Assembly (NCBI RefSeq): GCF_003797775.2
Contig: NZ_CP060725.1
Span: forward strand, 4,148,001-4,212,000
From: Sphingopyxis sp. OPL5
GTDB lineage: Bacteria > Pseudomonadota > Alphaproteobacteria > Sphingomonadales > Sphingomonadaceae
Direction: 5' to 3'
Length of the DNA stretch: 64,000 nucleotides
The translations under genes were made by a program, and so were the position numbers. Positions 2,052-57,746 of the stretch are shown in pieces; within the stretch, counting starts at the first letter, position 1, and every line of letters begins with the position of its first letter. The notes under the pieces are model-generated. The model worked only from the letters and a program-made list of their open reading frames with translations. It did no database searches and was not told where the DNA came from.

Positions 2052-2067
2052 AGTTATATAACTACGT
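2052..2067 (+). promoter_or_regulatory. Island operator, site 1 (AGTTATATAACTACGT)
   Basis: First of seven copies of a 16-bp element with a palindromic AGTTATATAACT core and a conserved ACTA[GA]GT flank (here ACTACGT). It overlaps a good vegetative promoter: -35 TTGAGT at 2049-2054, 17-bp spacer, -10 TTTCTA at 2072-2077. A bound protein should block RNA polymerase. It stands upstream of the five-gene block beginning at 2152. Confidence 0.7.
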
Positions 2068-2151
2068 TTACTTTCTATCGCGATTGACATATTGGCGGGG
2101 GAAAGAGGACAGACGGCCGAAGGTCGCCGGTCACGGGAAAGGACGAATGGC

Positions 2152-2460
2152 ATGGATTTGAAGCCGGGTTCGCGCTGGAAAAGCGCGGTGTGCGACGCGC
2201 AACTGGTGGTCGTGCGGCCGCCGAGCGCGGCGGGCGAACTGCAGTGTGGCGGCGTTCCGGTGCTGCCGATCGACGATGCGAGCGCGCCAAGCGGCGATGT
2301 CAGCGCCGATTTCGCCGAGGGCGTGATGATCGGCAAGCGCTACACCGATGAGGCGAGCGGGATCGAAGTGCTTGGCGCCAAGGCGGGCAAGGGATCGCTG
2401 GCGTTCAATGGTGTCGCGATGTCGATCAAGGGCGCGAAGCCGCTTCCCGCCTCGGACTGA
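2152..2460 (+). CDS. Conserved small protein of unknown function upstream of acyl-CoA synthetase
   Basis: A 102-residue soluble protein I cannot assign. It opens with LKPGSRWKSAVCDAQLVVV, then a CGG motif and a short run of beta-type hydrophobic strands; there is no signal peptide or membrane segment. The two cysteines (in AVCDA and LQCGG) could bind metal or a thiol group, but this is speculative. From memory, small proteins of this look sit next to acyl-CoA synthetases in mycobacteria and sphingomonads. The start at 2152 follows a GGAAAGGA ribosome site. It is separated from the CoA ligase gene by 5 bases, so the two are surely co-transcribed. Confidence 0.7.
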   Translation: MDLKPGSRWKSAVCDAQLVVVRPPSAAGELQCGGVPVLPIDDASAPSGDVSADFAEGVMIGKRYTDEASGIEVLGAKAGKGSLAFNGVAMSIKGAKPLPASD

Positions 2461-2465
2461 CAGAT

Positions 2466-3971
2466 ATGCGCACGCCGCTGCTCCTCGACATTGCCGCCGA
2501 TGCATGCTGCGACCGCCTGGCGGTCGGCGGGCGCGACGGCGGGCTCGATTTCGCCGCCTATCGCGCGCGGGCGAGCCGGGTTGCCGCGTGGCTGGCCGAC
2601 AAGGGCAAGGCGAACACCGCGTTCCTCGGCATGAACGGCGACGCTTTGCCCGTGCTGCTGTTCGCGAGCGGGATGGCGGGGACGCCGTTCGTGCCGCTCA
2701 ACTACCGCCTCGCCGATGGCGATTTGAACAAGCTGGTCGCGCGCACCGCGCCCGCGATGCTGATCGCCGACGACGATATGTTGGCCAGGATCGCGCCGGT
2801 CGAGGGGGTTGAGCTGATCGCGCGAAGCGATTTCGAGGCCGAGTTTTTACGCGGCGACGTACCCGAACCCGTGATGCTGGACGAGGCCGAGAATGATATC
2901 GCGGTGCTGCTGTTCACCAGCGGCACGACCGGCGATCCGAAGGCCGCGGTGCTGCGCCATGGCAATCTGACCTCCTATGTGATGTCGACCGTCGAGTTTC
3001 TCGGCGCCGATGAGGATGAGGCGGCGCTGGTCAGCGTGCCATCTTACCATATCGCGGGCATTTCGGCAATTTTGACCGCAGCCTATGGTGGGCGACGGAT
3101 CGTCTATCTGCCCGCCTTTACCGCCGAGGATTGGGTAACGACGGTGGCGGCGGAGGGCATCACGCATGCGATGGTGGTGCCGACGATGCTCAATCGCATT
3201 CTCGATGTGATGGCGGCGACGGCCGAGACGCTTCCGACGCTACGCGCGCTTTCCTATGGCGGTGGCAAGATGCCCGAGCCGGTGATCGCGCGGGCGCTCT
3301 CAGCCTTGCCGCATGTCGCCTTTGTCAACGCCTATGGGCTGACCGAAACCAGCTCAACGATCGCCTTGCTCGGCGCCGAGGATCATCGCGCGGCCTTCGC
3401 CTCGGACGATCCGGCGGTGCGCCGGCGCATCGCCTCGGTCGGCCAGCCGCTGCCGAGCCTCGAGCTTGAAATCCGGCGCGACGACGGAACTTGCTGCGAC
3501 GTGGGCGAGCATGGCGAAATCCATGTCCGCGGCGAGCAGGTGTCGGGCGAATATCTGCACAAAAAGTCGATCGCCGACGACGGCTGGTTCGCGACCAACG
3601 ACGCCGGCTGGCTCGACGAGGGCGGCTATCTGTTCGTCGAGGGGCGGCTCGACGACGTGATCGTGCGCGGCGGCGAGAATATCTCGCCGGGCGAGATCGA
3701 GGATGTGCTGCGCGGGTTCGACGATATCGCCGACTGCGCGGTGCTCGGCATTCCATGCGTTCAATGGGGCGAGAAGGTGGTGGCGGTGATCGTGTCGCGA
3801 TCGGGCGCGCCCGACACCGCTGCGATGGCGGCAACGATCCGCGCCAAGCTGCGTTCGACCAAGACCCCCGAACAATGGTTTGTGCGCGATGAGCTGCCCT
3901 ATAACGAGACCGGAAAGCTGCTGCGCCGAATCCTCAAGGCCGAACTGGCCGAAGAGGTTTGCGCCGGGTAG
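2466..3971 (+). CDS. Acyl-CoA synthetase (AMP-forming, ANL superfamily)
   Basis: Activates a carboxylic acid to its CoA thioester through an acyl-adenylate, in the cytoplasm. At 501 residues it has all the family landmarks: P-loop TSGTTGDPK (residues 151-159), NAYGLTETS (A5), the GWFATND-to-GRLDDVI hinge region, RGGENISPGEIE (A8) and the C-terminal ETGKLLRR bearing the catalytic lysine. It belongs to the medium-chain/aromatic FadD-type group but the substrate cannot be read off. Second gene of the operon controlled by the site at 2052. A crotonase, a CoA transferase and an amidohydrolase follow, suggesting it primes a ring or branched acid for this module. Confidence 0.93.
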   Translation: MRTPLLLDIAADACCDRLAVGGRDGGLDFAAYRARASRVAAWLADKGKANTAFLGMNGDALPVLLFASGMAGTPFVPLNYRLADGDLNKLVARTAPAMLIADDDMLARIAPVEGVELIARSDFEAEFLRGDVPEPVMLDEAENDIAVLLFTSGTTGDPKAAVLRHGNLTSYVMSTVEFLGADEDEAALVSVPSYHIAGISAILTAAYGGRRIVYLPAFTAEDWVTTVAAEGITHAMVVPTMLNRILDVMAATAETLPTLRALSYGGGKMPEPVIARALSALPHVAFVNAYGLTETSSTIALLGAEDHRAAFASDDPAVRRRIASVGQPLPSLELEIRRDDGTCCDVGEHGEIHVRGEQVSGEYLHKKSIADDGWFATNDAGWLDEGGYLFVEGRLDDVIVRGGENISPGEIEDVLRGFDDIADCAVLGIPCVQWGEKVVAVIVSRSGAPDTAAMAATIRAKLRSTKTPEQWFVRDELPYNETGKLLRRILKAELAEEVCAG

Positions 3972-3980
3972 GACGGCGCG

Positions 3981-4985
3981 ATGACCGCACCCGATTATCA
4001 CGCCGATCATCTTGGGGCCGACCGTCTGTCGGCGCCGGGCGGCGAGCCGGTGTTGGTGGTCGATGCGGCGCGGTGGTCGCGGCCGAAGGCACCGATCCAG
4101 GCGGTGGTGATCGGCGTCGATCGCGAGGGCGCGTTGCCTGCCGTCGTGGTCGACGATTTCGACCTGTTGCTGACTTTGACGAACGACGCGCCGCGGCCGT
4201 GGGTGTCGCTCGACGGGCGCGATGTCGAGGGCCAGGTCGAACGGCTGGCAAGCGCGGTGCGTAGCAATCCGTTGGCGGCAACGATCGCGGCACAGTTGTT
4301 GCGGCTCACGGCGAGAATGCCGCTGGGCGATGCGCTGACGGCCGAATCCCTTGCCTATTCGGCGTTGCTCGGCGGGGCGGAATTCGCCGCCTGGCGCGAA
4401 ACCGCGCTCATCGACGACGGTCCGCCGACGCCCGCCGAACCGGTGATGATTGAGCGCGACGGCGACCGGCTGACTCTGACGCTGAACGACCCCGCCAACC
4501 ATAATGCGATGACCGCCGCGATGCGCGACGCATTGTACGAGGCGCTGGCCAACGCACTCGACGACCCGAGCGCGCCCGATGTGCTGCTGCGGGGCGCGGG
4601 CAAATGCTTCTCGACCGGCGGCGGCCTGTCCGAATTCGGCAGTGCGCGCGACCTGGCGGAGGCGCATCTGGTGCGGACATTGCACAGCTGCGCGCGCGCG
4701 CTCGATGCGCTGGGCGATCGGGGGACGGCGCGGCTGCACGGCGCCTGTGTCGGGTCGGGGATCGAAGTCGCGGCGGCGGCGCATCACCGCATCGCGGCGC
4801 CCGACGCGTGGTTTCAGCTGCCCGAAATCGGCATGGGGCTGATTCCCGGCGCAGGCGGGACCGCGACCGTCGCGCGCGCGATCGGGCGGCATCGGACGCT
4901 GTGGATGCTGCTGTCGGGCAAGCGGGTCGGCGCCAGGATGGCTCTCGACTGGGGGCTCGTGACCGCAATCGAGGACCGTTCGTGA
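3981..4985 (+). CDS. Enoyl-CoA hydratase/isomerase family protein with N-terminal extension
   Basis: Crotonase-fold protein of 334 residues with unusual architecture. Residues 1 to about 150 do not look like crotonase. The crotonase core begins near VMIERDGDRLTLTLNDPANH and ends soon after the LPEIGMGLIPGAGG region, so the usual C-terminal helical domain is short or missing. Both acidic positions used by hydratases are present (GSGIEVA and LPEIG), so water addition to an enoyl-CoA is possible. The stop overlaps the GTG start of the CoA transferase. Hydratase, isomerase or hydrolase cannot be separated from sequence alone. Confidence 0.82.
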   Translation: MTAPDYHADHLGADRLSAPGGEPVLVVDAARWSRPKAPIQAVVIGVDREGALPAVVVDDFDLLLTLTNDAPRPWVSLDGRDVEGQVERLASAVRSNPLAATIAAQLLRLTARMPLGDALTAESLAYSALLGGAEFAAWRETALIDDGPPTPAEPVMIERDGDRLTLTLNDPANHNAMTAAMRDALYEALANALDDPSAPDVLLRGAGKCFSTGGGLSEFGSARDLAEAHLVRTLHSCARALDALGDRGTARLHGACVGSGIEVAAAAHHRIAAPDAWFQLPEIGMGLIPGAGGTATVARAIGRHRTLWMLLSGKRVGARMALDWGLVTAIEDRS

Positions 4986-5947
4986 CCGCGTTGCTCGACG
5001 CCGTGGCGGCGGCGGGCGACCGGCTGGTGGCAGCGTCGGGCAAACGGATCGCCTTCGATCCGCACCGGGCATTGTCGCGGCACGACGATCTGACGCTCGC
5101 GGAGCCGGGCGAGTGGTCGCCGAACCGCCATTGCCGGCTGGTGCCGTGTCGCGATGGGTGGATCGCAGTAACGCTGGCGCGCGACGAGGACCGCGAACTG
5201 GTTCCGGCATGGACGGGAGCAAGGTTTGAGGACGAGCCGTGGGACGCGATCACGGGCTTTGCGGCGGAGCGCGCAGCGGGGGTGGTGGTTACCGGGGCCA
5301 CCGACCTGCATATGCCGGTGGCGCGGGTGGGCGAAGCGGAGCCGCTGGCGATGTCCGACCTCGGGTCCGGCAAGCCGAGCGACGGCATCATCGTCGACCT
5401 GTCGGCGCTGTGGGCGGGTCCCTATTGCGGGGCGCTGCTCGCCGAGGCGGGCTATGCGGTGGTCAAGGTCGAAGCCGCCGAACGCCCCGACCCGACCCGG
5501 CTGCATACGCCGCACCTCGACAAAAGGCTGAACGGCGGCAAGCGACATCTGGTCATGGCTCTCGACGGCCCGGACCTGCTGGCGATGATCGGCGAAGCGC
5601 GCGTTCTGATCACCTCGGCGCGGCCGCACGCGCTGGCGCGACTGGGACTCGATGAGGCGCGGCTGTTTGCGATCAATCCCGACCTGTTGTGGATCGCGAT
5701 CACCGCGCATGGCTGGTCGGGCGATGCCGCGATGCGGGTCGGTTTCGGCGACGATTGCGCGGCGGCGGGCGGGCTGGTGCGGTGGGAGGATGGCCGGCCG
5801 CGGTTCATCGGCGACGCGCTGGCCGATCCGTTGACCGGGCTGACCGCGGCGACGCTGGCGCTGGAGGCGTTGGCGGCGGATGAGTGCGGGTTGCTCGATG
5901 TTTCGCTCGCCCGCACCGCCGCGACTTTCGCCAAGGCGATGGCATGA
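4982..5947 (+). CDS. CaiB/BaiF-type CoA transferase with permuted domain order
   Basis: Predicted transfer of CoA between carboxylic acids. The 321-residue protein begins at GTG 4982, overlapping the upstream stop. The order is odd: residues 1 to about 125 resemble the small module that normally follows the Rossmann part (NRHCRLVPCRDGWIAVTL), while the usual N-terminal motif (IIVDLSALWAGPYCGALLAE, then VVKVEAAERPDPTR) only appears around residue 135. The DALADPLTGL segment probably holds the catalytic aspartate. I recall similar permuted proteins in mycobacteria beside crotonases. Fourth gene of the 2152-7278 block; its ATGA overlap couples it to the amidohydrolase. Confidence 0.8.
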   Translation: MTALLDAVAAAGDRLVAASGKRIAFDPHRALSRHDDLTLAEPGEWSPNRHCRLVPCRDGWIAVTLARDEDRELVPAWTGARFEDEPWDAITGFAAERAAGVVVTGATDLHMPVARVGEAEPLAMSDLGSGKPSDGIIVDLSALWAGPYCGALLAEAGYAVVKVEAAERPDPTRLHTPHLDKRLNGGKRHLVMALDGPDLLAMIGEARVLITSARPHALARLGLDEARLFAINPDLLWIAITAHGWSGDAAMRVGFGDDCAAAGGLVRWEDGRPRFIGDALADPLTGLTAATLALEALAADECGLLDVSLARTAATFAKAMA

Positions 5948-7278
5948 GCGAGCGGTTCGACCTGATTATCCGCAATGCGCGCGCCGCCGATGGGAAGCCG
6001 TGCGCTGTCGCCGTTCGGGATGGATGCATCGCGGCCCTCGGCGCGGCGGTGGATGGCCATGGGCCCGAGATCGACGCCAAGGGGTTGACTTTGGGGTCGG
6101 GCCTGCACGATCATCATCTGCACTTGCTGGCGACCGCGGCGCGGATGGAGTCGGTCGATCTCGCCGATTGCCGAACGGTCGGGGCGGTGGTCGCCAAGCT
6201 GCGCGCCCGCCCCGGGGCACCCGGAACCTGGGTGCGCGCGATCGGCTATGACGAGCGGGTGGCGGGGTTGCCCGACCGGGTCTTGCTCGACGCCTGGCTG
6301 CCCGATCATCCGTTGCGGGTGCAGGATCGGACGGGGGGCTATTGGCTGCTGAACAGCGCGGGCGTCGCGAAGCTCGGCGAACCGCCCTTCCCCGATTGCG
6401 TCGAGCGCGATGCTGATGGGCGAGCGAACGGACGGATCTGGCGCGGCGATGGCTGGCTGCGCGGGCGGATCGGCGGGGCACCGCCGTCGCTTGCGGCGTT
6501 GGGTATGAAGCTGGCCGAGTGGGGCGTGACGGGCGTGACCGACGCGGGCGCGTTGAATGGTCCGGCGGAGGCCGCGCTGCTCGCGGGGGCGATGCCGCAG
6601 CGGCTGGTGATGATGGGGAGCGAGGACCTGCCTGCCGGTGAAGGCTATGCACTCGGCCCGGTGAAGCTGCTGCTCGACGAGAACGACCTGCCGCCGGTCG
6701 AGGCCGTCGCGCGGCGGATTGCGGCGGCACGCGTGCTGGGGCGCAACGTCGCGGCGCATTGCGTGACGCTGGGCGAACTGGTCTTCTATCTGGAAGCACT
6801 GGCTGTTGCGGGGGGGGCGAAGCCCGGCGACCGGATCGAGCATGGCGGGGTGATCGCCGACAGCCTGATCGGCGATATCGCGGCGGCAGGATTGACGGTG
6901 GTGACGCAGCCGAATTTCATTCACGACCGCGGCGATCGCTATCTGTCACAGATGGAGGCGGACGATCTTGGCGATCTCTATAGGCTGGGTTCGCTGACGC
7001 GCGGCGGGGTGCGAGTGCTTGGGGGTTCGGACGCGCCTTATGGCGATGCCAATCCTTGGGTGGCTTTGCGGGCGGCGACCAATCGGCGGACGCGCGGGGG
7101 CGACATCATCGGGGAGAGCGAAGCCGTCGGGCGGGCGGAGGCTTTGGCGCTGTATCAGGGCGCGCTTGCGATCGGGGCTCCAGCGGACCTGATATTGTAT
7201 GACTGGCCCCAGGATATGGGCGCGTTGGGGACTGTTAGTTTGACCATGATCGGCGGCGAGATCGTCTGGCAGCAGTGA
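5944..7278 (+). CDS. Amidohydrolase-3 family metal-dependent hydrolase (YtcJ-like)
   Basis: TIM-barrel metal hydrolase of 444 residues. It has a small N-terminal beta domain, the metal-binding HDHHLH segment at strand 1, a later NVAAHCVTLGE histidine, RIEHGG, and the C-terminal GGSDAPYGDANPW aspartate motif. YtcJ-type members hydrolyse amide or ring C-N bonds, but in a CoA module it could also open a lactone or ring C-C bond; that is inference. The start is the ATG at 5944, overlapping the CoA transferase stop. Last gene of the operon, followed by an inverted repeat. Confidence 0.82.
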   Translation: MSERFDLIIRNARAADGKPCAVAVRDGCIAALGAAVDGHGPEIDAKGLTLGSGLHDHHLHLLATAARMESVDLADCRTVGAVVAKLRARPGAPGTWVRAIGYDERVAGLPDRVLLDAWLPDHPLRVQDRTGGYWLLNSAGVAKLGEPPFPDCVERDADGRANGRIWRGDGWLRGRIGGAPPSLAALGMKLAEWGVTGVTDAGALNGPAEAALLAGAMPQRLVMMGSEDLPAGEGYALGPVKLLLDENDLPPVEAVARRIAAARVLGRNVAAHCVTLGELVFYLEALAVAGGAKPGDRIEHGGVIADSLIGDIAAAGLTVVTQPNFIHDRGDRYLSQMEADDLGDLYRLGSLTRGGVRVLGGSDAPYGDANPWVALRAATNRRTRGGDIIGESEAVGRAEALALYQGALAIGAPADLILYDWPQDMGALGTVSLTMIGGEIVWQQ

Positions 7279-9004: not shown

Positions 9005-9020
9005 AGTTATTACACTAGGT
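9005..9020 (+). promoter_or_regulatory. Island operator, site 2 (AGTTATTACACTAGGT)
   Basis: Variant copy of the 16-bp element, with two changes in the core but the intact CACTAGGT flank. It lies 12 bases upstream of the DUF35 start at 8993 and so probably controls the minus-strand DUF35-thiolase pair. The plus-strand promoter of the same intergenic region is covered by a different palindrome at 9034. Confidence 0.6.
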
Positions 9021-9033
9021 CATAAACCAAGAG

Positions 9034-9099: not shown

Positions 9100-10413
9100 A
9101 TGCAGATGGACGATATGGTGATCATCAGCGTCGACGATCATGCGGTCGAACCCCCCGAGGCTTTTATCCGCCACTATCCCGAGGGCAAGAAGGACCGCGC
9201 GCCGCGCATCGTCCAGGACAATGGCAAGGATATCTGGTCGTGGAACGGCCAGCGTTTTCCCACGATCGGGCTGAACGCCGTCGTCGGCCGCCCGCGCAGC
9301 GAATATGGCATGGAGCCGAGCGCCTTCGCGCAGCTCCGCCCAGGCACCTATGATCCAAAACTCCGCGTCGACGACATGAACGCGAACGGCGTGCTCGCCT
9401 CGCTGAACTTTCCGACGATGCCGAGCTTTGCCGGCGGGACCTTTGTCTCGATGGCGCAGAAGGACCCCGAGGAGGCGCTGCTCGCCTGCCGCGCGTGGAA
9501 CGACTGGCATGTCCAGGAATGGTGCGCGACCGCGCCGGGCCGCTTTATCCCGATGTGCCTGATCCCGATGTGGAACATGGACGACACGCTCGCCGAACTG
9601 AAGCGGATGAGCGACCTCGGCGTCCACGCCGTCAGCTTCTCCGACAACCCGTCGAACATCGGCCTGCCGAGCATCCACAATGAATATTGGGAGCCGTTCT
9701 GGAAGGCGTGCAGCGATTACAAGATGGTGATCAACTGCCATATCGGCACCGGGGCGCGCGCGATGCATCCCTCGCCCGAAAGCCCGATCGACGCATGGAT
9801 CACCGCGATGCCGATCTCGATCGCCAATTCGGCGGCCGACTGGACCTTCGCGAAATTCTGGCAGCGCTACCCCGATCTGCGCATGGCGCTGTCCGAAGGC
9901 GGCATCGGCTGGATCCCTTACTTCCTCGAGCGCGCCGATTTTACGCACGAACATCATCATGAATGGACCTACACCGACTTCAACGGCGAGCGCCCGTCGG
10001 ACCTGTTCAAGCGCCACATCATCTGCTGCTTCATCGACGACCAGTTCGGGGTGAAGAACCTCGAGTATATGAACACCGACATGATCGCCTATGAATGCGA
10101 TTATCCGCATTCGGACACGGTGTGGCCCAATGTCCCCGAATATCTGTGGGCGTCGGTCAACGGGATCGAGAAGGCGACGATCGACAAGATCACCCACCTC
10201 AACGCGATGCGCGAATATAGCTTCGATGCCTTTGCGCTGAACGGCGGGCGCGAAAATTGCACGGTCGCGCACCTGCGCGAGCTGGGCAAGGATGTCGATG
10301 TCAGCCCGCGCCACAATCTGGGCGGTCTGAAGACCGACAGCATGGACGCGATCGGCCAGGCGCGGCGTCCGGTGACGTCGGGCGACATCGAACGCATGTT
10401 CGCGTCGGCCTGA
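9100..10413 (+). CDS. Amidohydrolase-2 family protein (COG2159/ACMSD-like)
   Basis: TIM-barrel metalloenzyme of 437 residues, of the group that decarboxylates or hydrolyses C-C bonds as well as amides. The N-terminal VDDHAVEPPE gives the D-x-H-x2-E-P signature. Further metal-ligand candidates are NCHIGTGARAMH, HEHHHEW and the C-terminal YECDYPHSD. The ATG at 9100 follows GGAAGAGGAGAG. It opens a five-gene operon with a P450, an aldehyde dehydrogenase, a CoA transferase and a Gfo/Idh/MocA protein, spaced by 11-14 bases. The reaction is not predictable; ring cleavage or decarboxylation of a CoA-linked intermediate is the likeliest class. Confidence 0.85.
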   Translation: MQMDDMVIISVDDHAVEPPEAFIRHYPEGKKDRAPRIVQDNGKDIWSWNGQRFPTIGLNAVVGRPRSEYGMEPSAFAQLRPGTYDPKLRVDDMNANGVLASLNFPTMPSFAGGTFVSMAQKDPEEALLACRAWNDWHVQEWCATAPGRFIPMCLIPMWNMDDTLAELKRMSDLGVHAVSFSDNPSNIGLPSIHNEYWEPFWKACSDYKMVINCHIGTGARAMHPSPESPIDAWITAMPISIANSAADWTFAKFWQRYPDLRMALSEGGIGWIPYFLERADFTHEHHHEWTYTDFNGERPSDLFKRHIICCFIDDQFGVKNLEYMNTDMIAYECDYPHSDTVWPNVPEYLWASVNGIEKATIDKITHLNAMREYSFDAFALNGGRENCTVAHLRELGKDVDVSPRHNLGGLKTDSMDAIGQARRPVTSGDIERMFASA

Positions 10414-10425
10414 GCGGAGGATATT

Positions 10426-11703: not shown

Positions 11704-11716
11704 CAGGAACAAGACC

Positions 11717-13192: not shown

Positions 13193-13203
13193 GGGGATCA
13201 GCC

Positions 13204-47247: not shown

Positions 47248-47259
47248 GACATCTCCCCG

Positions 47260-47288
47260 TTGACTCGTTATGTAAACCATCGTTTACT
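47260..47288 (+). promoter_or_regulatory. P450-operon promoter with TetR operator
   Basis: -35 TTGACT (47260-47265), 17-bp spacer and -10 TTTACT (47283-47288) face the P450 gene at 47310. Across the spacer and -10 lies a palindrome at 47272-47287 with arms GTAAAC and GTTTAC around CATC. It differs from the other two operator types in the window and should be the target of the adjacent TetR protein. Confidence 0.75.
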
Positions 47289-47309
47289 TACGTCAATGGG
47301 AGAGAGAAA

Positions 47310-48497: not shown

Positions 48498-48502
48498 GCA
48501 AG

Positions 48503-48937
48503 ATGGATCAGGCCCTGCACATGCTGATGGTGCCCGCGGGCGACATGGCGGCGCTGCGTACCTTCTATCTGGACGGCCTCGGCTGGCAGCCATGGGGTCC
48601 CGACAGTCCTGGTTCGCTGATGCTGCGTGCCGGGACGGCGGTGATCGTCTTCGTTCCGCGCGACTATCTGGCGGCCGAAAGCGGCATCGATCTCGCCGCA
48701 GCGCCGCGCGCGGTCAACGCGACCTTCGTCGAGACCAAGGCCGACGTCGACACGCAATTCGCCAGAGCAATCGCCGCCGGCGCCATCGTTACCAGTCCGA
48801 TCCGCGACCGCGATGGCGGCCTCTATTCGGGCTATTTCGCCGACCCCGAGGGCAATGGCTGGGAAATCGTCTGGAGCCCGGTGATGCGTCCGGGTGCCGA
48901 TGGCGGACTCGTCCTCGCCACGCCCGAAACCCACTGA
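48503..48937 (+). CDS. VOC (glyoxalase/bleomycin-resistance) family protein
   Basis: 144-residue protein with two beta-alpha-beta-beta-beta modules of the vicinal oxygen chelate fold: MLMVPAGDMAALRTFYLDGLGW in the first and VNATFVETKADVDTQFARAIAAGA with YFADPEGNGWEIVW in the second. The terminal E in GNGWEI is a usual metal ligand, but the first-strand ligand (normally H or Q) is unclear. It could be a lyase, epimerase or binding protein for a P450 product. ATG 48503 is preferred; GTG 48494 or 48488, overlapping the P450 stop, are alternatives. Confidence 0.8.
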   Translation: MDQALHMLMVPAGDMAALRTFYLDGLGWQPWGPDSPGSLMLRAGTAVIVFVPRDYLAAESGIDLAAAPRAVNATFVETKADVDTQFARAIAAGAIVTSPIRDRDGGLYSGYFADPEGNGWEIVWSPVMRPGADGGLVLATPETH

Positions 48938-48960
48938 ACAACCGAGAAGAGGATATCATC

Positions 48961-50445
48961 ATGGCCAGCGCAGCACCCGCAGTTCACCTGCATCTGGGGC
49001 ACGAACAACGCAGCAGCGGCAGCGGCGGGACGCACCCGCATCTGCATCCCGTTACACAAGTGACGCAAGCCGATATCCCGCTCGCCGGTGCGAAGGAGGT
49101 CGAGGAAGCGGTCGCCAAGGCCGAGGCGGTGCGCGAGTCCTGGCGCCGCACGGCGCCCGAGACGCGGCGCGACATCTTGAACCGGTTGGCCGACCTGCTC
49201 AAGGCGAACAAGGCCGAGCTGGCGCGCATGGCGGCGCTCGACGGCGGCACAACGCTGATGGTCGGCGAGCGCGGGGTCGATACCGCGGTCGGCTGGACGC
49301 GCTATTACGCCGGCTGGTGCGACAAGATGTCGGGCGAGCTGATCTCGACCTTCGATACGCGCGGCGAGCTGTCGTACACGGTGCCCGAACCGATCGGCAT
49401 CGTCGGGATCATCATCACCTGGAACGGGCCGCTGATCTCGCTCGGCATGAAGGTCGTGGCGGCGCTGGCGGCGGGCAATTGCGTGATCTGCAAGCCCGCC
49501 GAATTGACTCCCTTTGCCCCCGAGCTGTTTGCACGGCTATGTGCTGAAGCGGGGGTTCCCGACGGCGTGCTGTCGATCTTTCCGGGGACCGCCGAGGCGG
49601 GCGATGCGATCGTGCGGCACAAGAAGATCCGCAAGATCAGCTTCACCGGCGGTCCGATCACCGCGCGCAAGATCCTCATCGCCTGCGCCGAGGAGATCAA
49701 GCCGTCGGTGATGGAACTCGGCGGCAAGTCGGCGAGCCTCGTCTTCCCCGATTGCGACGTGCAGGCGGCGGCCGAGCGCGCGGTGTTCTGGACCGTCGGC
49801 TGCCTGTCGGGGCAGGGCTGCGCCCTCCCCACGCGTCAGGTCGTCCACGCCGATATCTACGACGATTTCGTTGCGCGGGTGAAAGCGATCATCGGCCAGT
49901 TCAAGGTCGGCGACCCGATGGACCCGACGGTGATGGTCGGACCCGTCATCAACAAGGCGGCGGTCGAGCGGATCACCGGCATGTTCGACCGCGCCAAGGC
50001 CGACGGCGCCGCGACCTTCCTGCTCGGCGGCGGGCGCTGCGGCGGCGAATTCGCCGAGGGCAATTTCATCGAGCCGACGCTGATCGTCGATGCCGATCCA
50101 GACCATGAAATCAGCCAGGTCGAGATTTTCGGCCCGGCAGTGGTGGTGATGAAATTCCACACCGAAGATGAAGCGATCGCGATCGCCAACAACAGCGAAT
50201 ATGGTCTCGCCGCGATGATCCAGTCGAACGATCTGCAGCGCGTGCACCGTCTGTCGGAGCGGCTCAATGCCGGCGGCGTCTATGTCAACGGTGGGTTCCA
50301 GATCAATCCGTACACGCCATTTGGCGGGGTCGGCATTTCGGGCTTTGGCAAGGAAGGCGGCAAGGCGGGGATCGACGAATTCCTGCACTACAAGACGGTG
50401 ACCATCGGCGTCGGCGCGCCGATCTTTCCGAAGCAGGAGGCGTGA
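48961..50445 (+). CDS. NAD(P)-dependent aldehyde dehydrogenase
   Basis: 494 residues with N155, E252 (MELGGKS) and nucleophile C287 (GQGCALPTR), the same GQGCA-type context as the 11717 enzyme. The first 30 residues are a histidine-rich, low-complexity arm (HLHLGHEQ, then THPHLHP) not seen in the other enzyme, possibly metal binding. A full-length reading from ATG 48961 is favoured; the longer frame runs back over the VOC gene. It probably oxidises an aldehyde produced through the P450 at 47310. Confidence 0.93.
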   Translation: MASAAPAVHLHLGHEQRSSGSGGTHPHLHPVTQVTQADIPLAGAKEVEEAVAKAEAVRESWRRTAPETRRDILNRLADLLKANKAELARMAALDGGTTLMVGERGVDTAVGWTRYYAGWCDKMSGELISTFDTRGELSYTVPEPIGIVGIIITWNGPLISLGMKVVAALAAGNCVICKPAELTPFAPELFARLCAEAGVPDGVLSIFPGTAEAGDAIVRHKKIRKISFTGGPITARKILIACAEEIKPSVMELGGKSASLVFPDCDVQAAAERAVFWTVGCLSGQGCALPTRQVVHADIYDDFVARVKAIIGQFKVGDPMDPTVMVGPVINKAAVERITGMFDRAKADGAATFLLGGGRCGGEFAEGNFIEPTLIVDADPDHEISQVEIFGPAVVVMKFHTEDEAIAIANNSEYGLAAMIQSNDLQRVHRLSERLNAGGVYVNGGFQINPYTPFGGVGISGFGKEGGKAGIDEFLHYKTVTIGVGAPIFPKQEA

Positions 50446-50447
50446 CC

Positions 50448-51236
50448 ATGGCCGATTTCACGAACGACCAGTTCCGGCTCGACGGCAAGGTGGCGATCGT
50501 CACCGGCGCCGGCGGGCGCGGGAACAGCATCGGGCGCGCTTATGCAGTGGGCCTCGCCAACGCGGGGGCTAGCGTTGTCGTCGCCGACCTCAACAAGGGA
50601 GGCGCCGAGCGCGTCGCGGGCGAGATCGAAGCGGCAGGCGGCAAGGCGCTGGCAGTGGAAGTCGATATCGCCGACGAGGCGTCGGTCGCGGCAATGATGG
50701 AGGCGACCGCCGCAGCCTTCGGCGGGCTCGATATCCTCGTCAACAACGCTGCGCTGATGGTCGAGGCGGTCGGTACGCTGGCGATTCAGACGAGCATCGC
50801 CGATTTCGACAAATTGATGCGCGTCAATCTGACCGGTGCCTTGATCTGTTCGAAGGCCGCTGTGCCGTTGTTCCAGGCGCGCGGCGGCGGCAAGATCGTC
50901 AACCAGCTGTCGGCGGGCGGCTTCCCCGCGCAGACCACCTACGGGATCAGCAAGGTGGCGTTGCTCGGACTGACGACGACACTGGCGACCGAACTCGGCC
51001 GGATGAACGTCAACGTCAACGCGATCGCGCCGGGGATGACGATGTCCGACGCGGGCAAGGCGCTGACCCCCGAGGAAAGCCCGTTCGTTCAGGCGGCGAT
51101 GGCGCGCGTGGTCAAGCAGCCGCGCGGGCTGCCGGAGGATCTGGTCGGGGCGCTGTTGTTGCTGTGCTCGTCCGCGGGCGACTGGATCACCGGTCAGGCG
51201 CTCAACGTCGATGGCGGGTTCATAATGCGCAATTAG
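50448..51236 (+). CDS. Short-chain dehydrogenase/reductase
   Basis: 262-residue SDR with an extended glycine motif (TGAGGRGNSIG), VADLNKGG with the acidic residue for NAD, NNAALM, QLSAGG around the serine, and TTYGISK. The ending NVDGGFIMRN is normal. ATG 50448 is chosen because AGGAGG lies seven bases upstream; GTG 50442 is in frame. Last gene of the TetR-controlled P450 operon, likely oxidising the alcohol for the aldehyde dehydrogenase. Its last 17 bases overlap the 3' end of the convergent LysR gene. Confidence 0.88.
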   Translation: MADFTNDQFRLDGKVAIVTGAGGRGNSIGRAYAVGLANAGASVVVADLNKGGAERVAGEIEAAGGKALAVEVDIADEASVAAMMEATAAAFGGLDILVNNAALMVEAVGTLAIQTSIADFDKLMRVNLTGALICSKAAVPLFQARGGGKIVNQLSAGGFPAQTTYGISKVALLGLTTTLATELGRMNVNVNAIAPGMTMSDAGKALTPEESPFVQAAMARVVKQPRGLPEDLVGALLLLCSSAGDWITGQALNVDGGFIMRN

Positions 51237-52146
51237 GCTGGGCCGTCTCGATCCAGCGATTGCGAACATGAGTGGCCATCGCGACCGCATAACGTTCGGC
51301 GGTCGGGGTGGGGTAAAGCCGGGCGCGGCGGGCGATGACGATCTGCGCCGACCAGTCGGCGATTTCGGGGATGGCAAGCGTGAGGAGCCGCCCGGCGTCG
51401 ATATGCTCGGCGATGGCCGCTGAAATCGCGAGCAAGACGGCGTCGCTGCGCGCGGTCAGTTCGACCAGCGTCGACACTTGTTCGCAATACACGCTGCCAG
51501 CCTCGGGGCGGCTCGACTGGCGCACGGCCGGCCCCGCATCGAGCGGCACCATCGGCAGATTGGGCGACGCGCGCGGATATGCGGCGATGTCGGCAACCGA
51601 AAGCCGCTTGCGGTCGAGCAGTTCATGCCCCGGGCGTACATGATAACCGATCGGCGCCGTGCCAATCGGTTCGACCGCGATGCTCGGGTGATCGCGCGCC
51701 GCGCGGCCGTCGGCGACGAAGAAGTCGAGATCATCGGACAGCAGGCGGCTGACCAGCCGTTCGACCGGCAGGATATGCACCTGAACCTCGACCGCCTGCG
51801 ACGGTTGCCACACGGCCTGCAGATAATCGGTGAGAAGGCCGGCGAACATCGGGCCGAGGCCGATGCGTACGCGCCCCGTTTCGCCGCGCGACAGCCGCTG
51901 CGCATGCGCCTTCAGCCCTTCCGCCTGCCCAAGCAGCGTGCGCGCTTCTTCGACCACCGCCGAACCCGCCGCCGTGGTGACGACGCCCGTTGCAATGCGT
52001 TCGAACAATTTTAGCCCCAGTTCGCCTTCGAGACTCTGGATGCTGCGGCTGAGCGCGGATTGCGACAGGTGCAGCCGCGCGGCGGCGGCGGTGAAATTGC
52101 CCCAGTCGGCCAAAAACACGGCGTGGCGAAGTCTTCGCAAATCCAT
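51220..52146 (-). CDS. LysR-family transcriptional regulator
   Basis: 308 residues: N-terminal winged helix-turn-helix (LRHAVFLADWGNFTAAAARLHLSQSALSRSIQSLE) and a periplasmic-binding-protein-like effector domain. It is divergent from the sterol desaturase-type gene at 52247, with phased ATGCA half-sites between them, so it most likely activates that gene in response to its substrate. The ATG at 52146 sits at the edge of the first half-site. The 3' end overlaps the SDR gene at 50448 tail to tail. Confidence 0.9.
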   Translation of the reverse strand: MDLRRLRHAVFLADWGNFTAAAARLHLSQSALSRSIQSLEGELGLKLFERIATGVVTTAAGSAVVEEARTLLGQAEGLKAHAQRLSRGETGRVRIGLGPMFAGLLTDYLQAVWQPSQAVEVQVHILPVERLVSRLLSDDLDFFVADGRAARDHPSIAVEPIGTAPIGYHVRPGHELLDRKRLSVADIAAYPRASPNLPMVPLDAGPAVRQSSRPEAGSVYCEQVSTLVELTARSDAVLLAISAAIAEHIDAGRLLTLAIPEIADWSAQIVIARRARLYPTPTAERYAVAMATHVRNRWIETAQPNCAL

Positions 52147-52154
52147 GACCAATC

Positions 52155-52191
52155 ATGCAGTTTATGCATTAAAAATGCAATATCTATGCAT
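52155..52191. promoter_or_regulatory. Phased ATGCA half-sites, probable LysR binding region
   Basis: Four ATGCA elements begin at 52155, 52164, 52175 and 52186, spaced 9, 11 and 11 bases, close to one DNA turn. The central pair forms an inverted repeat TGCATTAAAAATGCA at 52165-52179, a LysR-type T-N-A box. The array lies between the divergent LysR gene and the sterol desaturase-type gene and fits a tetramer bound along one DNA face. Confidence 0.6.
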
Positions 52192-52246
52192 TGGATTTAT
52201 TGCCCGCGTCGTGGGATGGATTGCCGCATCGCAGGGGAGAATATCG

Positions 52247-53047
52247 ATGCAGCCGCAACATTGGACCTTCATATTGATCGCCGCGATATTGGCGATCGAA
52301 CTGGCCACGGGCCGTCACAAGGGCGTCCATCGCAAGCATGATTTCTTCATCATCGGCTCGGTAATTCTCGGCTCGCAGGTGACGCGCATCGGAATGGCGT
52401 GGCTGACGGCATGGATCGTCGGCCTGTTGCTGCCGACAGGCAAAGGCGCGCTTGGCGACGTGCCAATCTGGTCGGGGTTCGTGGGCCTGCTGCTTGTCGC
52501 CGAGTTCGGCCAATATTGGATCCACCGTTCGGCGCATGATACGATCAACCACCCGTGGCTCCACGGCATGCACCGCACCCATCACAGCGCGCCCTATGTC
52601 AATGTCACCTTAATGTGGCGTACCAATCTGGTCTGGCCGCTGGTCCACGCTTATACTTGGGTGGCGGCGCTGGGATTTTACCTCGGCATGACCGGTGCGA
52701 CGACGATATTCTACATCACCATCATGGCGTGGAACGCGATCACTCACAGCGACTGGCGCTGGGACGACGTGATCGCGCGAAAGGTGCCGGGTGGCGCACG
52801 CTTCGTCCGTGCCTTCGAATGGGTGTTCGTGACCCCGCGCATCCACCACACGCATCATGGTTATGGCAAAGACGGCAAGGCCTATCGCAACTTCTGCACG
52901 ATGCTCAGCTTTTATGATCGGATGTTCGGGACGCTGCATGTGCCCGAAGGTCGCCCGTGGCGTTACGGCCTGCCCGGCGGCGAGCATGACTGGTGGCGGC
53001 AATTGCTCTTCCCGCTCGTCCCACTCGGCGAGTCCAGGAAGCGCTAG
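52247..53047 (+). CDS. Sterol desaturase/fatty acid hydroxylase superfamily protein
   Basis: 266-residue integral membrane di-iron oxygenase. Histidine clusters are all present: H93-x3-H97, H106/H109/H112/H113 (HGMHRTHH), H167, and H200-H201-x-H203-H204 (HHTHH), with three to four hydrophobic helices between them. It would hydroxylate or desaturate a hydrophobic substrate at the membrane. ATG 52247 has GGGGAGAATATCG in front; longer readings run through the operator region. Monocistronic, convergent with the CoA ligase at 53044 with a four-base overlap. Confidence 0.87.
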   Translation: MQPQHWTFILIAAILAIELATGRHKGVHRKHDFFIIGSVILGSQVTRIGMAWLTAWIVGLLLPTGKGALGDVPIWSGFVGLLLVAEFGQYWIHRSAHDTINHPWLHGMHRTHHSAPYVNVTLMWRTNLVWPLVHAYTWVAALGFYLGMTGATTIFYITIMAWNAITHSDWRWDDVIARKVPGGARFVRAFEWVFVTPRIHHTHHGYGKDGKAYRNFCTMLSFYDRMFGTLHVPEGRPWRYGLPGGEHDWWRQLLFPLVPLGESRKR

Positions 53048-54555
53048 GCGGTTTCGCGCAACTGGTGCTTCAACACCTTGCCCGAAGCGTTACGCGGCAG
53101 TTCGTCGACAATGCTCAGCCGTTCAGGCGTTTTCTGTTTCGCGATGCCCGACGAAAAGAAATGGTCGCGCACCTCATCGAGCGTCAGCGACCCACCCGGC
53201 GCGAGCACGACGCAAGCGCGCACTACCTCGCCCATGCGGTCGTCGGGTGCGGCGACCACGGCAACGTCGGCGACCGCCGGATGCGCCAACAGCACCGCCT
53301 CGACCTCTTTCGACGAGATATTCTCGCCGCCGCGGATGATGATGTCCTTCTTGCGGTCGGTGATGAGGAGATAGCCGCCCTCGTCGAGGCGGCCGATGTC
53401 GCCGGTGCGGTACCAGCCGCCGGGCAGGAAGGCGGTCTCGTTCAGCGCGGGGTCGAGATAGCCCAGGAAGAGTTCGGGACCGCGGGTACAGATTTCGCCG
53501 TCTTCGCCCGGCGCGACGTCGTGACCGTCGTCGTCGATGAAGCGCATTTCAGAGCCAGCGATCGCGCGGCCCTCGGTATGGAGTTGCTTGTCGAGCGGGT
53601 CGTCGACGACCCCCGAAGTCACCGTCGGATGCTCGCTCGATCCGTAGCAATGATAGACGGCGAGGCCTTGGCGCTGACAGCGCTCGATCAGCGAAGGCGG
53701 CACGGGCGCGGCGCCAACGAGATACTGGCGCAGCGAGGTCAGGTCATAGCCATGGATGTCAGCGGCGGCGATCATGCCCGACAGGTGGAAGGGCGTGCCC
53801 GACGATGAGGTCACCTTGTGGCGGTCGATGAGCTCAGCGGCGAGCGCCGCATCCCACTGGTCCATCAGGATCAGCGGCGTGCCCTGGCAAAGGAAGCGGT
53901 ACATCGACAGCGCGCCCGCGACATGGCCGGGCGGCCAGGGCGAGATCACCGCATCATCGTCGCCGCCGGCCCGCATCGCGCGCATCGTTTCAAGCTCGGC
54001 GAGGAAACCGCGCGCGCTGTGCATCACACCCTTGGGATCAGCGGTGGTGCCCGAGGTATAGACCAGCAGCGCGAGGTCGTTCGCATCGACCGGCACCGGA
54101 TCGGCAATCGGCCCGTCGGCTTCGAGCGCAGCGAAGGCGCGGCCGATGGCGATGTGGCGCTCAAGCGCGGGAAGGTCGCCGCAGTCGGCTACCACCTGCG
54201 CATAATCGACATTTCGGAAGCGGTCGGGCGTGAACAGCCATTTCGCGCCTGACTGGCGCAGGATGAAGCCGAGTTCTTTCGCGCCATAGATGGTGACGAT
54301 CGGCAGCATCACGGCGCCCGCCTGCCCGGAGGCGACCGCGACGACGAGCCATTCGCGCCAGTTGGCGAGCATGCAAGCGATAATGTCGCCGCGGCCGACG
54401 CCCGCCGCTGTCATTCGCGTTCCCATGCGGCGTCCCGCTGCGACGACGTCACTCAGCGTGGTGATGCAGGGCAGACGATCCGAGGCAACGGTCAGCGACG
54501 CGCCGGGCGCCCGCGCCGCGGCGGCGGTCATCGCCTCGATGAAATTCGAACTCAT
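53044..54555 (-). CDS. Acyl-CoA synthetase (AMP-forming, ANL superfamily)
   Basis: 503 residues with P-loop TSGTTADPK (167-175), YHCYGSSEHP (A5), GWYRTGDIGRLDEGGYLLITDRKKDIIIRG split over A7-A8, and C-terminal RNASGKVLKHQL with the catalytic lysine. The GSSEHP motif and general look suggest the cyclohexanecarboxylate/aryl acid CoA-ligase group rather than long-chain FadD. It is cotranscribed with the GntR regulator (ATGA overlap at 54552-54555), so it may be controlled by it. Confidence 0.92.
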   Translation of the reverse strand: MSSNFIEAMTAAAARAPGASLTVASDRLPCITTLSDVVAAGRRMGTRMTAAGVGRGDIIACMLANWREWLVVAVASGQAGAVMLPIVTIYGAKELGFILRQSGAKWLFTPDRFRNVDYAQVVADCGDLPALERHIAIGRAFAALEADGPIADPVPVDANDLALLVYTSGTTADPKGVMHSARGFLAELETMRAMRAGGDDDAVISPWPPGHVAGALSMYRFLCQGTPLILMDQWDAALAAELIDRHKVTSSSGTPFHLSGMIAAADIHGYDLTSLRQYLVGAAPVPPSLIERCQRQGLAVYHCYGSSEHPTVTSGVVDDPLDKQLHTEGRAIAGSEMRFIDDDGHDVAPGEDGEICTRGPELFLGYLDPALNETAFLPGGWYRTGDIGRLDEGGYLLITDRKKDIIIRGGENISSKEVEAVLLAHPAVADVAVVAAPDDRMGEVVRACVVLAPGGSLTLDEVRDHFFSSGIAKQKTPERLSIVDELPRNASGKVLKHQLRETA

Positions 54556-55322
54556 CCGTGCAGGGAGTCGACGGTCCGCTCGCCCTCGCCGCGCGCCGCC
54601 CAGGTGTCGTTGGCGTTGCGCAGGTGGAGCCGCCAGTGCGCGACGGCACCCTCAACGTCGCCGGCCTCGATCATCGTGACCAGTTTCTCGAAAGATTTGA
54701 ACCCCGCGCGCAGGCTCTTGTACTTGTCCTCGGTCGTGCGAGGGTGGCGGCGCTGATAGTCATTCTGATGATGGCGCCCCAGGTTGAGCAGCATGCGGTT
54801 CATCAAGCTCAACGTCTTGTTTCCCGTTGCCTCGACCAGCGTCTGGTGGAAAATCGACACATTGTCGACGAATTCGGCATAGCCTTCATTCTTGAGCATG
54901 TCCTCAAGCTCGGAAAGCGCTTGCCGTAGCCTTGCGAAGCCGGGCGTCTGGCCCTTCGAGGTCGCGAGCCAGCGCACGACGGTCGGCTCGATCGCGAGCC
55001 GCGCGGCATAGAGATCGGCGATCGTCGTCCCCTCGGCCTCAAGCAGGTAGCCGGCGTAACGCGACACGAGTTCGACCGACGGCTGGTGCACCCGCGCACC
55101 GCTGCGCGAACCGCGAACGACGCTGATCAGATTTTCGGCCTCGAGGATACGGAAGGCTTCGCGCAGGGTCGGGCGCGATATGCCGAGGGTAGCCATCAAC
55201 GTGCCCTCGGGTGGCAGCGAGTCGCCTTCTTTCAGCTCACCGCGGACGATCTGGGCCCTGATCTGGTCGGCGACCAGTTCCGACGTCTTCGGAACCCGGA
55301 TGCGCGAATTGCCACTATCCAT
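54552..55322 (-). CDS. GntR-family regulator (FCD subgroup)
   Basis: 256 residues: winged helix-turn-helix (ELVADQIRAQIVRGELKEGD; GISRPTLREAFRILEAENLI) and an FCD domain that retains likely metal-binding histidines (SIFHQTL and HWRLHLRN), unlike the GntR at 28480. ATG 55322 follows AGGAATTTTGCAG. No copy of the island operator is seen in the 109 bases upstream, which makes it a weaker candidate for that regulon. It probably controls its own operon with the CoA ligase gene. Confidence 0.88.
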   Translation of the reverse strand: MDSGNSRIRVPKTSELVADQIRAQIVRGELKEGDSLPPEGTLMATLGISRPTLREAFRILEAENLISVVRGSRSGARVHQPSVELVSRYAGYLLEAEGTTIADLYAARLAIEPTVVRWLATSKGQTPGFARLRQALSELEDMLKNEGYAEFVDNVSIFHQTLVEATGNKTLSLMNRMLLNLGRHHQNDYQRRHPRTTEDKYKSLRAGFKSFEKLVTMIEAGDVEGAVAHWRLHLRNANDTWAARGEGERTVDSLHG

Positions 55323-56292: not shown

Positions 56293-56803
56293 CAAGGGTG
56301 ATGCCCATGACCGCGCCGGTGACATAAGCGGCGTAATCGCTGGCGAGATAGGCAGCGAGCTTTCCGAGCGTGTCGCCGGTCTCGCGCGTGAGAATGCTGT
56401 TCACGCGGATACCGTCGCGCGCCCATTCGACGCCAAGCGTCTTGGTGAGGTTGCCGAGCGCACCCGCGGCGGCGGCATGGTCGGCGCCAAGCGCCTGTTC
56501 GGGGGCGCCGATAAACAGCACTGCCCCGCCCTGCCCGCGAGCGCGACAGGCCTCGGCGAAATCCTTAGCGCCGAGGAAGCGGCGGTCGAGACCGACGTCG
56601 AGGCTGGCGCGCCATTCGGCATGGGTGAGGTCCTGCGCCAGCTTTGTCGCGGGCGGCGGCGCGATATGAACCCAGATATCATGGTCGCCGTCGCTCACCA
56701 GCGTCGCGCCCGCCGCTTGGAAGGCCGCAATGATCGCCGGGCTATCGCCCTCGATCCGTGCGCGTTTGCCCGCCAGCCAACCGCTCATTTCCACCCGCGT
56801 CAT
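56285..56803 (-). CDS. Degenerate, truncated SDR-like protein
   Basis: 172 residues that resemble an SDR only in their second half (HAAAAGALGNLTKTLGVEWARDGIRVNSIL). The N-terminal cofactor motif is gone (GWLAGKRARIEGDSPAIIAAF), the NNAG region is unrecognisable, and tyrosine and lysine of the active site are absent. It is nevertheless an intact frame with start-stop overlaps to both neighbours and a GGGGGTGGAA ribosome site, so it looks maintained rather than decayed. It may be a structural partner of one of the adjacent SDRs, forming a hetero-oligomer. Confidence 0.75.
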   Translation of the reverse strand: MTRVEMSGWLAGKRARIEGDSPAIIAAFQAAGATLVSDGDHDIWVHIAPPPATKLAQDLTHAEWRASLDVGLDRRFLGAKDFAEACRARGQGGAVLFIGAPEQALGADHAAAAGALGNLTKTLGVEWARDGIRVNSILTRETGDTLGKLAAYLASDYAAYVTGAVMGITLDD

Positions 56804-57681
56804 TTCCACCCCCAAGGCCCGTCGGCGCGTTCGCGCGGCGGCACGAAGTCGGGCATCATCAGCGACCGGCGCAAGCTTTCGCCGCCGTCCTGCACGATCA
56901 CCTGCCCGGTCATGTCGCCAAACAGGGGTGTGCAGGTCATCGCCGAAAGCCAGCCGAATTCCCAGATGCTGCCGGTGCGCCCCGCGGGGATCATATTCTG
57001 AAGCGGCTCGATGCCGCCTTCGCGGTTTCCGGCGGTCGAGCTCGCATGCGGGAAAAACCCCGCGGCGATCGCGTTGACCCGGATGCCATAGGGCGCCCAG
57101 TCGGCGGCGAGTTTGCGGGTCATCGTCGCCTGCGCGGTCTTGGCGGCGGCGCTGTGCGCATCGCCGGGAAAGCCGGTCCAGATATATTGGGCGCTGTTGT
57201 TGACGATCGCGCCACCTTTGCCCCGCGCGATGCGGCGGCGGGCAAATTCGGTCGAACAAAGGAAGGTGCCGTCGATCGCGATGCGGGTGACGGCATTCCA
57301 CGCGTTGGGCGAGATATCCTCGGCGAGGACCGGAAAATTGGCGCCGGCATTGTTGGCGAGCAGGCCGATCGGGCCGAGCGCCTCTTCGGCCTCGTCGAAA
57401 GCCGCGGCGACGGCTTCGGGGAGCCGCACGTCGCAGCTCATCGCATGGGCGCGCACGCCAAGCGCCGCGATTTCCGCCGCGCCTTCCCGCGCGCGTTCGA
57501 TACTGCGGCCCATGACCGCGACATTGGCGCCGCCCTGTGCGAAGGCCTTGGCCATCGCGAGCCCCATGCCCGATCCGCCGCCGGTGACGAGCACCGTCTG
57601 ACCCGCGAAGATATCCGCCGGATAGGGCGGTGCGTCGAACGGCGGCGGGGCCGCCACGATATGATGTGCTGGAACCGGCAA
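56800..57681 (-). CDS. SDR, 2,4-dienoyl-CoA reductase-like
   Basis: 293-residue paralogue of the 42864 gene product: cofactor motif TGGGSGMG, NNAGANFP, active-site segment AHSAAAKTAQ, and the C-terminal RRSLMMPDFVPPRE tail. Predicted NADPH-dependent removal of a double bond from an unsaturated acyl-CoA. No ATG suits: TTG 57681 has GGGAG six bases upstream and gives a normal N-terminus. First gene of the operon 57681 to 55432, divergent from the SMP-30 gene with island operator site 7 between them. Confidence 0.84.
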   Translation of the reverse strand: MPVPAHHIVAAPPPFDAPPYPADIFAGQTVLVTGGGSGMGLAMAKAFAQGGANVAVMGRSIERAREGAAEIAALGVRAHAMSCDVRLPEAVAAAFDEAEEALGPIGLLANNAGANFPVLAEDISPNAWNAVTRIAIDGTFLCSTEFARRRIARGKGGAIVNNSAQYIWTGFPGDAHSAAAKTAQATMTRKLAADWAPYGIRVNAIAAGFFPHASSTAGNREGGIEPLQNMIPAGRTGSIWEFGWLSAMTCTPLFGDMTGQVIVQDGGESLRRSLMMPDFVPPRERADGPWGWK

Positions 57682-57730
57682 TTTTCTCTCCCTTCGCGCA
57701 GGGTTGCGCCTCAGCCACGTGCGTGTCAAG

Positions 57731-57746
57731 ACATACATAACTAGGT
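57731..57746 (+). promoter_or_regulatory. Island operator, site 7 (ACATACATAACTAGGT)
   Basis: Most degenerate core of the seven but with the full ATAACTAGGT side. It lies immediately upstream of a plus-strand -10 TATATA (57747-57752) for the SMP-30 gene at 57760, and 50 bases upstream of the divergent SDR gene at 57681. The -35 is not obvious. Confidence 0.62.

Follow-up and report, generated by a model that had tools for sequence, protein, structure and literature searches.

We analyzed a 16-bp element that recurs at promoters of a catabolic gene island in Sphingopyxis sp. OPL5, taking as the window a stretch of 64,000 nucleotides at positions 4148001–4212000 of its one-contig genome (NZ_CP060725.1; 4,676,975 bases, 4.68 Mb). 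Positions are given in window numbering unless marked as genome positions. The element probably serves as operator for a local, autoregulated repressor in the FadR/FCD group of GntR regulators, the 256-aa protein encoded at 54552–55322 on the minus strand (hereafter the 54552 protein). The original prediction, made from the window's letters, had described a single operator with an island-wide regulon. This observation was confirmed as real and proved stronger than first claimed: there was support for a single operator, for one large island regulon, for a regulator of the GntR/FCD type, and for a repression-like layout.

Distribution and architecture of the element

All seven predicted sites were recovered (7/7), with 1, 3, 1, 0, 0, 0, and 1 mismatches to the proposed consensus in positional order. 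The consensus gave ten matches in the window, three sites matching on the opposite strand too; shuffled windows gave a mean of 0.04 matches, and none of 100 shuffles attained ten. Across the whole genome, 11 places matched at a tolerance of one mismatch. Ten of these lay within genome positions 4150052–4227957, a 78-kb segment making up 1.7% of the genome; the reversed-pattern control produced no match at this threshold. Four of the ten lie just beyond the right end of the window, at 64662, 71931, 75933, and 79942. The scan inside versus outside the island thus showed no even spread of the kind expected for a generic promoter element; the sites were concentrated at functionally linked promoters and rare elsewhere, as in a single co-regulated regulon. 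Among 384 other genomes sampled from the class, none had an exact match, and 14 of 249 family genomes (G000 included) carried a match with at most one mismatch.

Allowing three mismatches gave 35 matches over the genome, which does not exceed the 44 of the control, so what argues for the site at 9005, which has three mismatches, is its divergent-promoter position. At the same tolerance, a looser pattern gave 46 matches versus 71 for its control, and the pattern TATAACTRGGTTATA gave 16 versus 61 and was no better as a search tool; the latter scan revealed a core 5′ of a paralogue gene (genome 1590073–1590804) and one match at genome position 3389554, at a gene end. Outside the island, operator-like single sites were observed at genome positions 1695828 (the eleventh place; L033) and, in weaker form, 3646424 (L035), both 5′ of TonB receptor genes. 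The 1695828 site lies near thiolase and SDR homologs of island genes, and a 2-mismatch site at genome position 967600 is intergenic.

We built a weight matrix from 33 distinct sites, trained on sites found with the originally predicted pattern. Within the 16-mer, positions 8–11 (TAAC), 12–13 (TA), and 15–16 (GT) were almost invariant, and conservation went on through positions 18–22 (ATA[TC]A), ending at about position 22 to 25. The 16-bp unit first described is therefore too short. The matrix reads about TATATAACTARGTTATATA, and its symmetry is best about position 13, giving TATATAAC-N3-GTTATATA; the 16-mer reads as part of a larger, nested-symmetric operator near this form. A second, nested palindrome, AGTTATATAACT, centered at 6.5, was present at several sites. 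A 16-bp palindrome, ACYTA-N6-TARGT (center 8.5), was set aside because the 33-site matrix favors center 13.

Promoter-like hexamers span at least two sites. At 57731, TGTCAA and TATATA flank the 16-mer 17 bp apart, and at 29258, TTGACT and TTTAAT stand 17 bp apart across the site; both arrangements fit promoter blocking. Between the operator at 57731 and the SDR start, a AGGGTTGCGC block (GGTTGCGC in 17/17 rows) was observed in the window (57700–57709) and in loci L088–L107. It lies 14 bp from a TTGACA on the minus strand and is possibly an unusual -10 region or the site of another factor.

Probable assignment of the operator to a regulator

We compared the presence of the motif with that of six regulators encoded in the island region: GntR 54552, GntR 28480, MarR 4140579 (genome position), TetR 46687, MarR 59110, and TetR 20464; a LysR (51220) and a MerR (1273) were left out. 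Relatives were counted in 249 family genomes at E ≤ 1e-35 for the 54552 protein, E ≤ 1e-25 for the 28480 GntR, and E ≤ 1e-35 for MarR 4140579. Relatives of the 54552 protein occurred in 11 genomes, 10 of which are among the 14 motif-positive genomes (Fisher test, 5e-14 by genome and 1e-5 by genus), and the operator thus co-occurs with one regulator across genomes, again as for a single co-regulated regulon. Among the ten genomes with both the motif and a 54552-type regulator, the 28480 GntR was found in three, TetR 46687 in two, MarR 59110 in two, TetR 20464 in three, and MarR 4140579 in one; this set was chosen for carrying both motif and regulator, so its 10/10 for 54552 is not independent, and the 249-genome comparison is. 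On this genomic evidence, the best owner of the operator is probably the 54552 protein rather than the 28480 protein. The original prediction had named 54552 second and preferred 28480; its second candidate fits far better.

The association extends to named genomes. A scan of these returned 36 loci with relatives of the 54552 protein, the nearest being 91–92% identical to it, and 34 were scanned for the motif, two very weak loci (L122, L123) being left out. A site with at most two mismatches was present in 27 of the 34, and in 26 of the 28 loci at 49% identity or more; three shuffles per locus gave 0.00 matches. Loci with a site include Sphingopyxis, Sphingorhabdus, Novosphingobium, Henriciella, and an Acetobacteraceae metagenome-assembled genome (2 mismatches). 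No site of at most two mismatches was found in four Mycobacterium loci (35–37% identity) or in L104, L114, and L116. These counts contain some redundancy: L097 and L098 give identical matches, L105 is apparently G056, which places one genome in both sets, and the Sphingopyxis loci are closely related.

The regulator gene lies fourth in a minus-strand operon (57681–53044) ordered SDR, SDR-like g073, SDR g072, GntR (54552), and AMP-ligase. Because the site at 57731 sits at the promoter of this operon, the 54552 protein is probably autoregulated. The first gene, an SDR at 56800–57681 on the minus strand supported by Pfam, has a TTG start by frame reading, with ATG at the aligned place in L088–L093. 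In 14 of 16 mostly Sphingopyxis loci (L088–L103), the GntR gene had a site of at most three mismatches at an equal distance, ~2.4 kb; at this tolerance none was found in L097 and L098. In Sphingopyxis and two neighbors, the operon-promoter site carried the TGTCAA flank and then GTTATA in 17/17 aligned rows; as rows were picked by a motif match of at most three mismatches, only the flanking blocks are independent evidence. A core site within 350 bp 5′ of the GntR gene was present in 6 of 51 loci: G244, G141, this genome's 43% paralogue, one Novosphingobium, and two Henriciella.

Related regulators show the core in other settings. The GntR/FCD paralogue of the 54552 protein (43% identical; genome 1590073–1590804; L064, L137) has the core TCTAACTAGGTAATA ~140 bp 5′ of its start, so that cross-talk between paralogues is possible. 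On contig 2 of G244 (L054, L131), one of five 54552 relatives has TTTAACTAGGTTATATAACC ~170 bp 5′ of it, a possible case of regulator expansion with diverging operators. In the genera coded g38 (four genomes) and g73 (three genomes), sites with at most two mismatches lie 5′ of a thiolase gene whose product is orthologous and 71–72% identical to g101 and also 5′ of an ACAD-like gene, which the GntR gene follows in 5 of the 7 genomes; in g38 a site also precedes a second thiolase gene. The regulon in g38 and g73 looks small.

Several observations weigh against ownership by the 54552 protein or against the operator form given above. Co-inheritance of a gene cluster would give the same co-occurrence without binding. 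G031 encodes a 40% relative of the 54552 protein and has no site, G244 has five relatives and variant sites only, and the 54552-type regulator was not found in the motif-positive genomes G133, G190, G201, and G234, which have one 1-mismatch site each; here, "not found" is not proof of absence, because each of the three large genome searches scores no more than 10 to 14 first-look candidates in any one genome. In 45 of the 51 loci, the window's own included, there is no core site directly 5′ of the regulator gene, and in the window the nearest upstream operator is ~2.4 kb away, at the operon start. The weight matrix and the mismatch counts differ on the register of symmetry: the matrix favors center 13, and the counts over 37 distinct sites slightly favor center 6.5 (4.8 for center 6.5, 5.3 for center 13, and ~11.5 for unrelated offsets). 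The right arm of center 13 may also be partly a -10 box at rightward promoters; at the leftward-only sites, 27208 and 34370, this arm is poor.

The alternative that survives best keeps the same owner and reverses its effect, the 54552 protein binding the element and activating transcription. Some FadR-type regulators act as both activator and repressor. The sites here, as read from sequence with start sites not mapped, seem to overlap the -10/-35 region rather than lie upstream of it, and we regard activation as unlikely.

Ownership by the 28480 GntR/FCD protein (28480–29202, minus strand), the candidate preferred originally, is still less likely. It is likewise a GntR/FCD protein and has site 4 in its promoter, in G056 a 58% relative adjoins a perfect site, and in G244 a 45% relative lies ~3.3 kb from a 1-mismatch site. 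Its distribution does not follow the motif, however: relatives occur in 9 of 249 family genomes, and 3 of the 9 are motif-positive, six carriers lacking the motif (Fisher 0.01, versus 5e-14 for 54552). It was not found at E ≤ 1e-25 in seven of the ten genomes with motif and 54552-type regulator, nor in the seven motif-bearing genomes of two genera, and it shares just 21% identity with the 54552 protein. The 28480 gene is probably a target of the operator rather than the gene of its regulator.

We consider it very improbable that the element is a promoter signature, that is, a -10 region with fixed spacer or the site of an alternative sigma factor. At several sites, a TGTCAA or TTGAC-like hexamer lies to the left of TATA[TC]A at a distance of ~17 bp, as such a signature would predict, but the confinement of 10/11 genome copies to one island, the lack of an exact copy in the 384 other class genomes, the placement of most sites between divergent genes, and the tracking of one regulator by the motif all argue for an operator. 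Weakest of all is the case for the MarR protein encoded 7 kb 5′ of the window (genome 4140579–4141082, minus strand): its own promoter has ACTTAGACTACTAAGT, a palindrome ACTTAG-N4-CTAAGT whose letters resemble the motif, but just 2 of its 9 carrier genomes among the 249 are motif-positive (Fisher 0.08), and ACTTAG-N4-CTAAGT (at most two mismatches, without a chance control) occurs in the 3.5-kb locus of 4 of 8 MarR relatives, in genomes (G122, G101, G150, G074) that are not motif-positive.

This candidate was dropped once presence and absence had been compared and related palindromes had turned up near MarR in relatives. The MarR palindrome looks like a separate look-alike operator. It was also observed 5′ of leuCD-like and TonB receptor genes at window positions -6768 to -4600 (genome 4141223–4143400), with loci L080, L081, L083, and L087. 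The sites at genome positions 4141223 and 4143301 probably belong to the MarR system and were left out of the regulon.

Regulon and proposed mechanism

Eleven sites were placed in the island stretch (ten plus the weak site at 9005), and all are intergenic after frame-based start correction. The original statement that the element never lies inside a gene held up on frame reading, the automatic calls g058 and g074 over sites 42031 and 57731 being wrong. Eight of the eleven lie between divergent genes (9005, 29258, 42031, 57731, 64662, 71931, 75933, and 79942), and three lie 5′ of a single operon (2052, 27208, and 34370). Behind these sites stand about 19 transcription units, 11 of them inside the window, where about ten had been predicted. 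They cover ~67 genes, provided that adjoining same-direction genes are co-transcribed.

Within the window, site 1 (2052–2076, plus strand) lies in the promoter of genes for a 102-aa open reading frame, AMP-ligase, enoyl-CoA hydratase (ECH), CoA-transferase, and amidohydrolase (2152–7278, plus). The weak site 2 (9005–9029, plus), which the genome scan by itself does not support, lies between ChsH2-like/thiolase genes (8993–7408, minus) and an amidohydrolase-P450-ALDH-CoA-transferase-Gfo/Idh series (9100–15569, plus). Site 3 (27208–27232, plus) is 31 bp, center to start, 5′ of thiolase/ChsH2/CoA-transferase/APH/SDR genes (27189–21113, minus). Site 4 (29258–29282, plus), spanned by TTGACT-17-TTTAAT, separates the GntR/FCD gene (29202–28480, minus) from an amidohydrolase gene (29321–30436, plus), and site 5 (34370–34394, plus) precedes genes for a TonB receptor (34324–31907, minus) and an MFS transporter (31799–30549, minus). 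Site 6 (42022–42046, minus) lies between the eight-gene SDR/AMP-ligase operon (41998–34444, minus) and ECH/SDR/ECH/acyl-CoA dehydrogenase (ACAD) genes of beta-oxidation (42071–46681, plus). Site 7 (57731–57755, plus) lies between the operon of the 54552 regulator and SGL/SnoaL/MarR/APH/ACAD/SDR genes (57760–63499, plus).

Pfam, run on selected genes among 118 gene calls, identified a TonB receptor, an MFS transporter, AMP-binding ligases, class III CoA transferases, amidohydrolases, SDRs, enoyl-CoA hydratases, acyl-CoA dehydrogenases, and an APH-type kinase-like protein adjoining an acyl-CoA dehydrogenase. The reach of the regulon is in one respect larger than described, extending past the window, and in another incomplete, some island genes being uncovered: the stretches 15689–20985 and 46687–53047 have no site, one of the three thiolase/ChsH2-like pairs lies outside the covered units, and one of the two P450s is covered. 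From the thiolase/ChsH2 pairs, P450s, and CoA transferases, we read the island pathway as one that degrades a steroid- or isoprenoid-like compound, a substrate suggested by gene content. Two gene arrangements were observed in addition. A fused protein, part alpha/beta hydrolase and part HsaB-like flavin reductase, is encoded at 27257–28483; its reductase half has partial similarity to the steroid enzyme HsaB (NCBIfam 159 bits, below the cut-off of 230). At 59565–61933, an APH-type kinase gene adjoins an acyl-CoA dehydrogenase gene, a pair reminiscent of the split ACAD11-like or Lva hydroxyacyl-CoA systems.

On the sequence evidence, the likeliest mechanism is repression with autoregulation. 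The data show the sites, their specificity, their positions, and their co-occurrence with the regulator; binding, repression, and ligand are inferred. A dimer of the 54552 protein, or several dimers as in NanR, would bind AT-rich half-sites, GTTATA / TATAAC, generally in the arrangement TATATAAC-N3-GTTATATA and overlapping the -10/-35 region of divergent promoters, and the bound protein would block RNA polymerase. A pathway substrate or CoA-thioester intermediate would release the repressor, so that one signal could open ~19 transcription units (at most ~67 genes) plus the regulator's own operon: TonB uptake, ligases, thiolase/ChsH2 pairs, P450, CoA transferases, and beta-oxidation enzymes. 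The proposal makes owner, operator, and targets testable for a ~80-kb catabolic island; no paper on regulation of the island was found in the open-access literature, judged from search listings.

Comparison with known FCD-group regulators

The 54552 protein belongs to the GntR FadR/FCD group, scoring above the Pfam cut-offs for both GntR (65.0 bits; cut-off 27) and FCD (71.0 bits; cut-off 24.3). An AlphaFold2 model (pLDDT 87.6, pTM 0.72) has a winged helix and a helical domain. NanR was the best match in the PDB sequence search (6on4, E 1.5e-13), in the PDB fold search (6on4, E 2.9e-9), and in NCBIfam, where the score of 107 bits lies below the curated cut-off of 260 and does not place the protein in the NanR family. 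TM-scores were low (0.34 to 0.61 by query, among the matches listed), which a different angle between the two domains would lead one to expect. Two residues that are usually metal ligands in FCD domains, an Asp and a His, are Val and Ser in the 54552 protein, which might, as a speculation, suit a ligand larger than a small carboxylate.

The kind of system is familiar. E. coli NanR, of the GntR/FadR subfamily with an FCD domain, is likewise a local catabolic repressor, repression by the 54552 protein being a prediction, and its half-site GGTATA resembles the GTTATA found here (PMC8012715). The differences are equally clear: the NanR operator consists of three direct GGTATA repeats, whereas here no such direct repeats were found and the GTTATA-like half-sites are partly inverted and overlapping; the putative base-contacting Arg59 of NanR aligns with Gly40 of the 54552 protein; and the annotated island genes are not sialic acid genes.

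The FadR subfamily (PMC4494728) shares with the present system the GntR and FCD domains and the placement of sites in divergent intergenic regions. Its consensus operator is TKGT-N3(2)-ACMA, and an Arg at helix-turn-helix position 28 is associated with G/C in the TKGT box (Suvorova et al. 2015, PMC4494728). The operator here lacks TKGT-N3-ACMA, which counts against assigning it to a member of this subfamily. NanR and BioR are listed there as exceptions; NanR thus stands outside the consensus as the present operator does, and BioR (TTATMKATAA) likewise has an AT-rich TTAT/ATAA site (PMC4494728), but it differs in its spacing and in serving biotin metabolism (PMC4554459). In two overlapping alignments, whose rows include the 28480 protein and two Mycobacterium proteins, Arg was present at position 28 in 0 of 38 rows, with Arg50 kept in 36/38 and Arg54 in 38/38; the relation between position 28 and the operator consensus is a correlation.

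No description of the operator or of its protein subgroup was found in the open-access literature, judged from search listings, and searches with motif strings returned no bacterial-operator title among the matches listed. Tentatively, and with rather less confidence than in the operator's assignment, we suggest that a distinct FCD subgroup without the usual base-reading Arg at position 28 reads its own AT-rich code and travels with a catabolic island across alphaproteobacterial families (Sphingopyxis, Novosphingobium, Henriciella, and possibly Acetobacteraceae) as a master switch, paralogues reading the same core. The operator would be a further exception to the FadR-subfamily consensus. The system lends itself as a natural test of how DNA specificity changes among FCD-group regulators, since its operator departs from the group consensus and the aligned relatives have a different residue at the position tied to that consensus.

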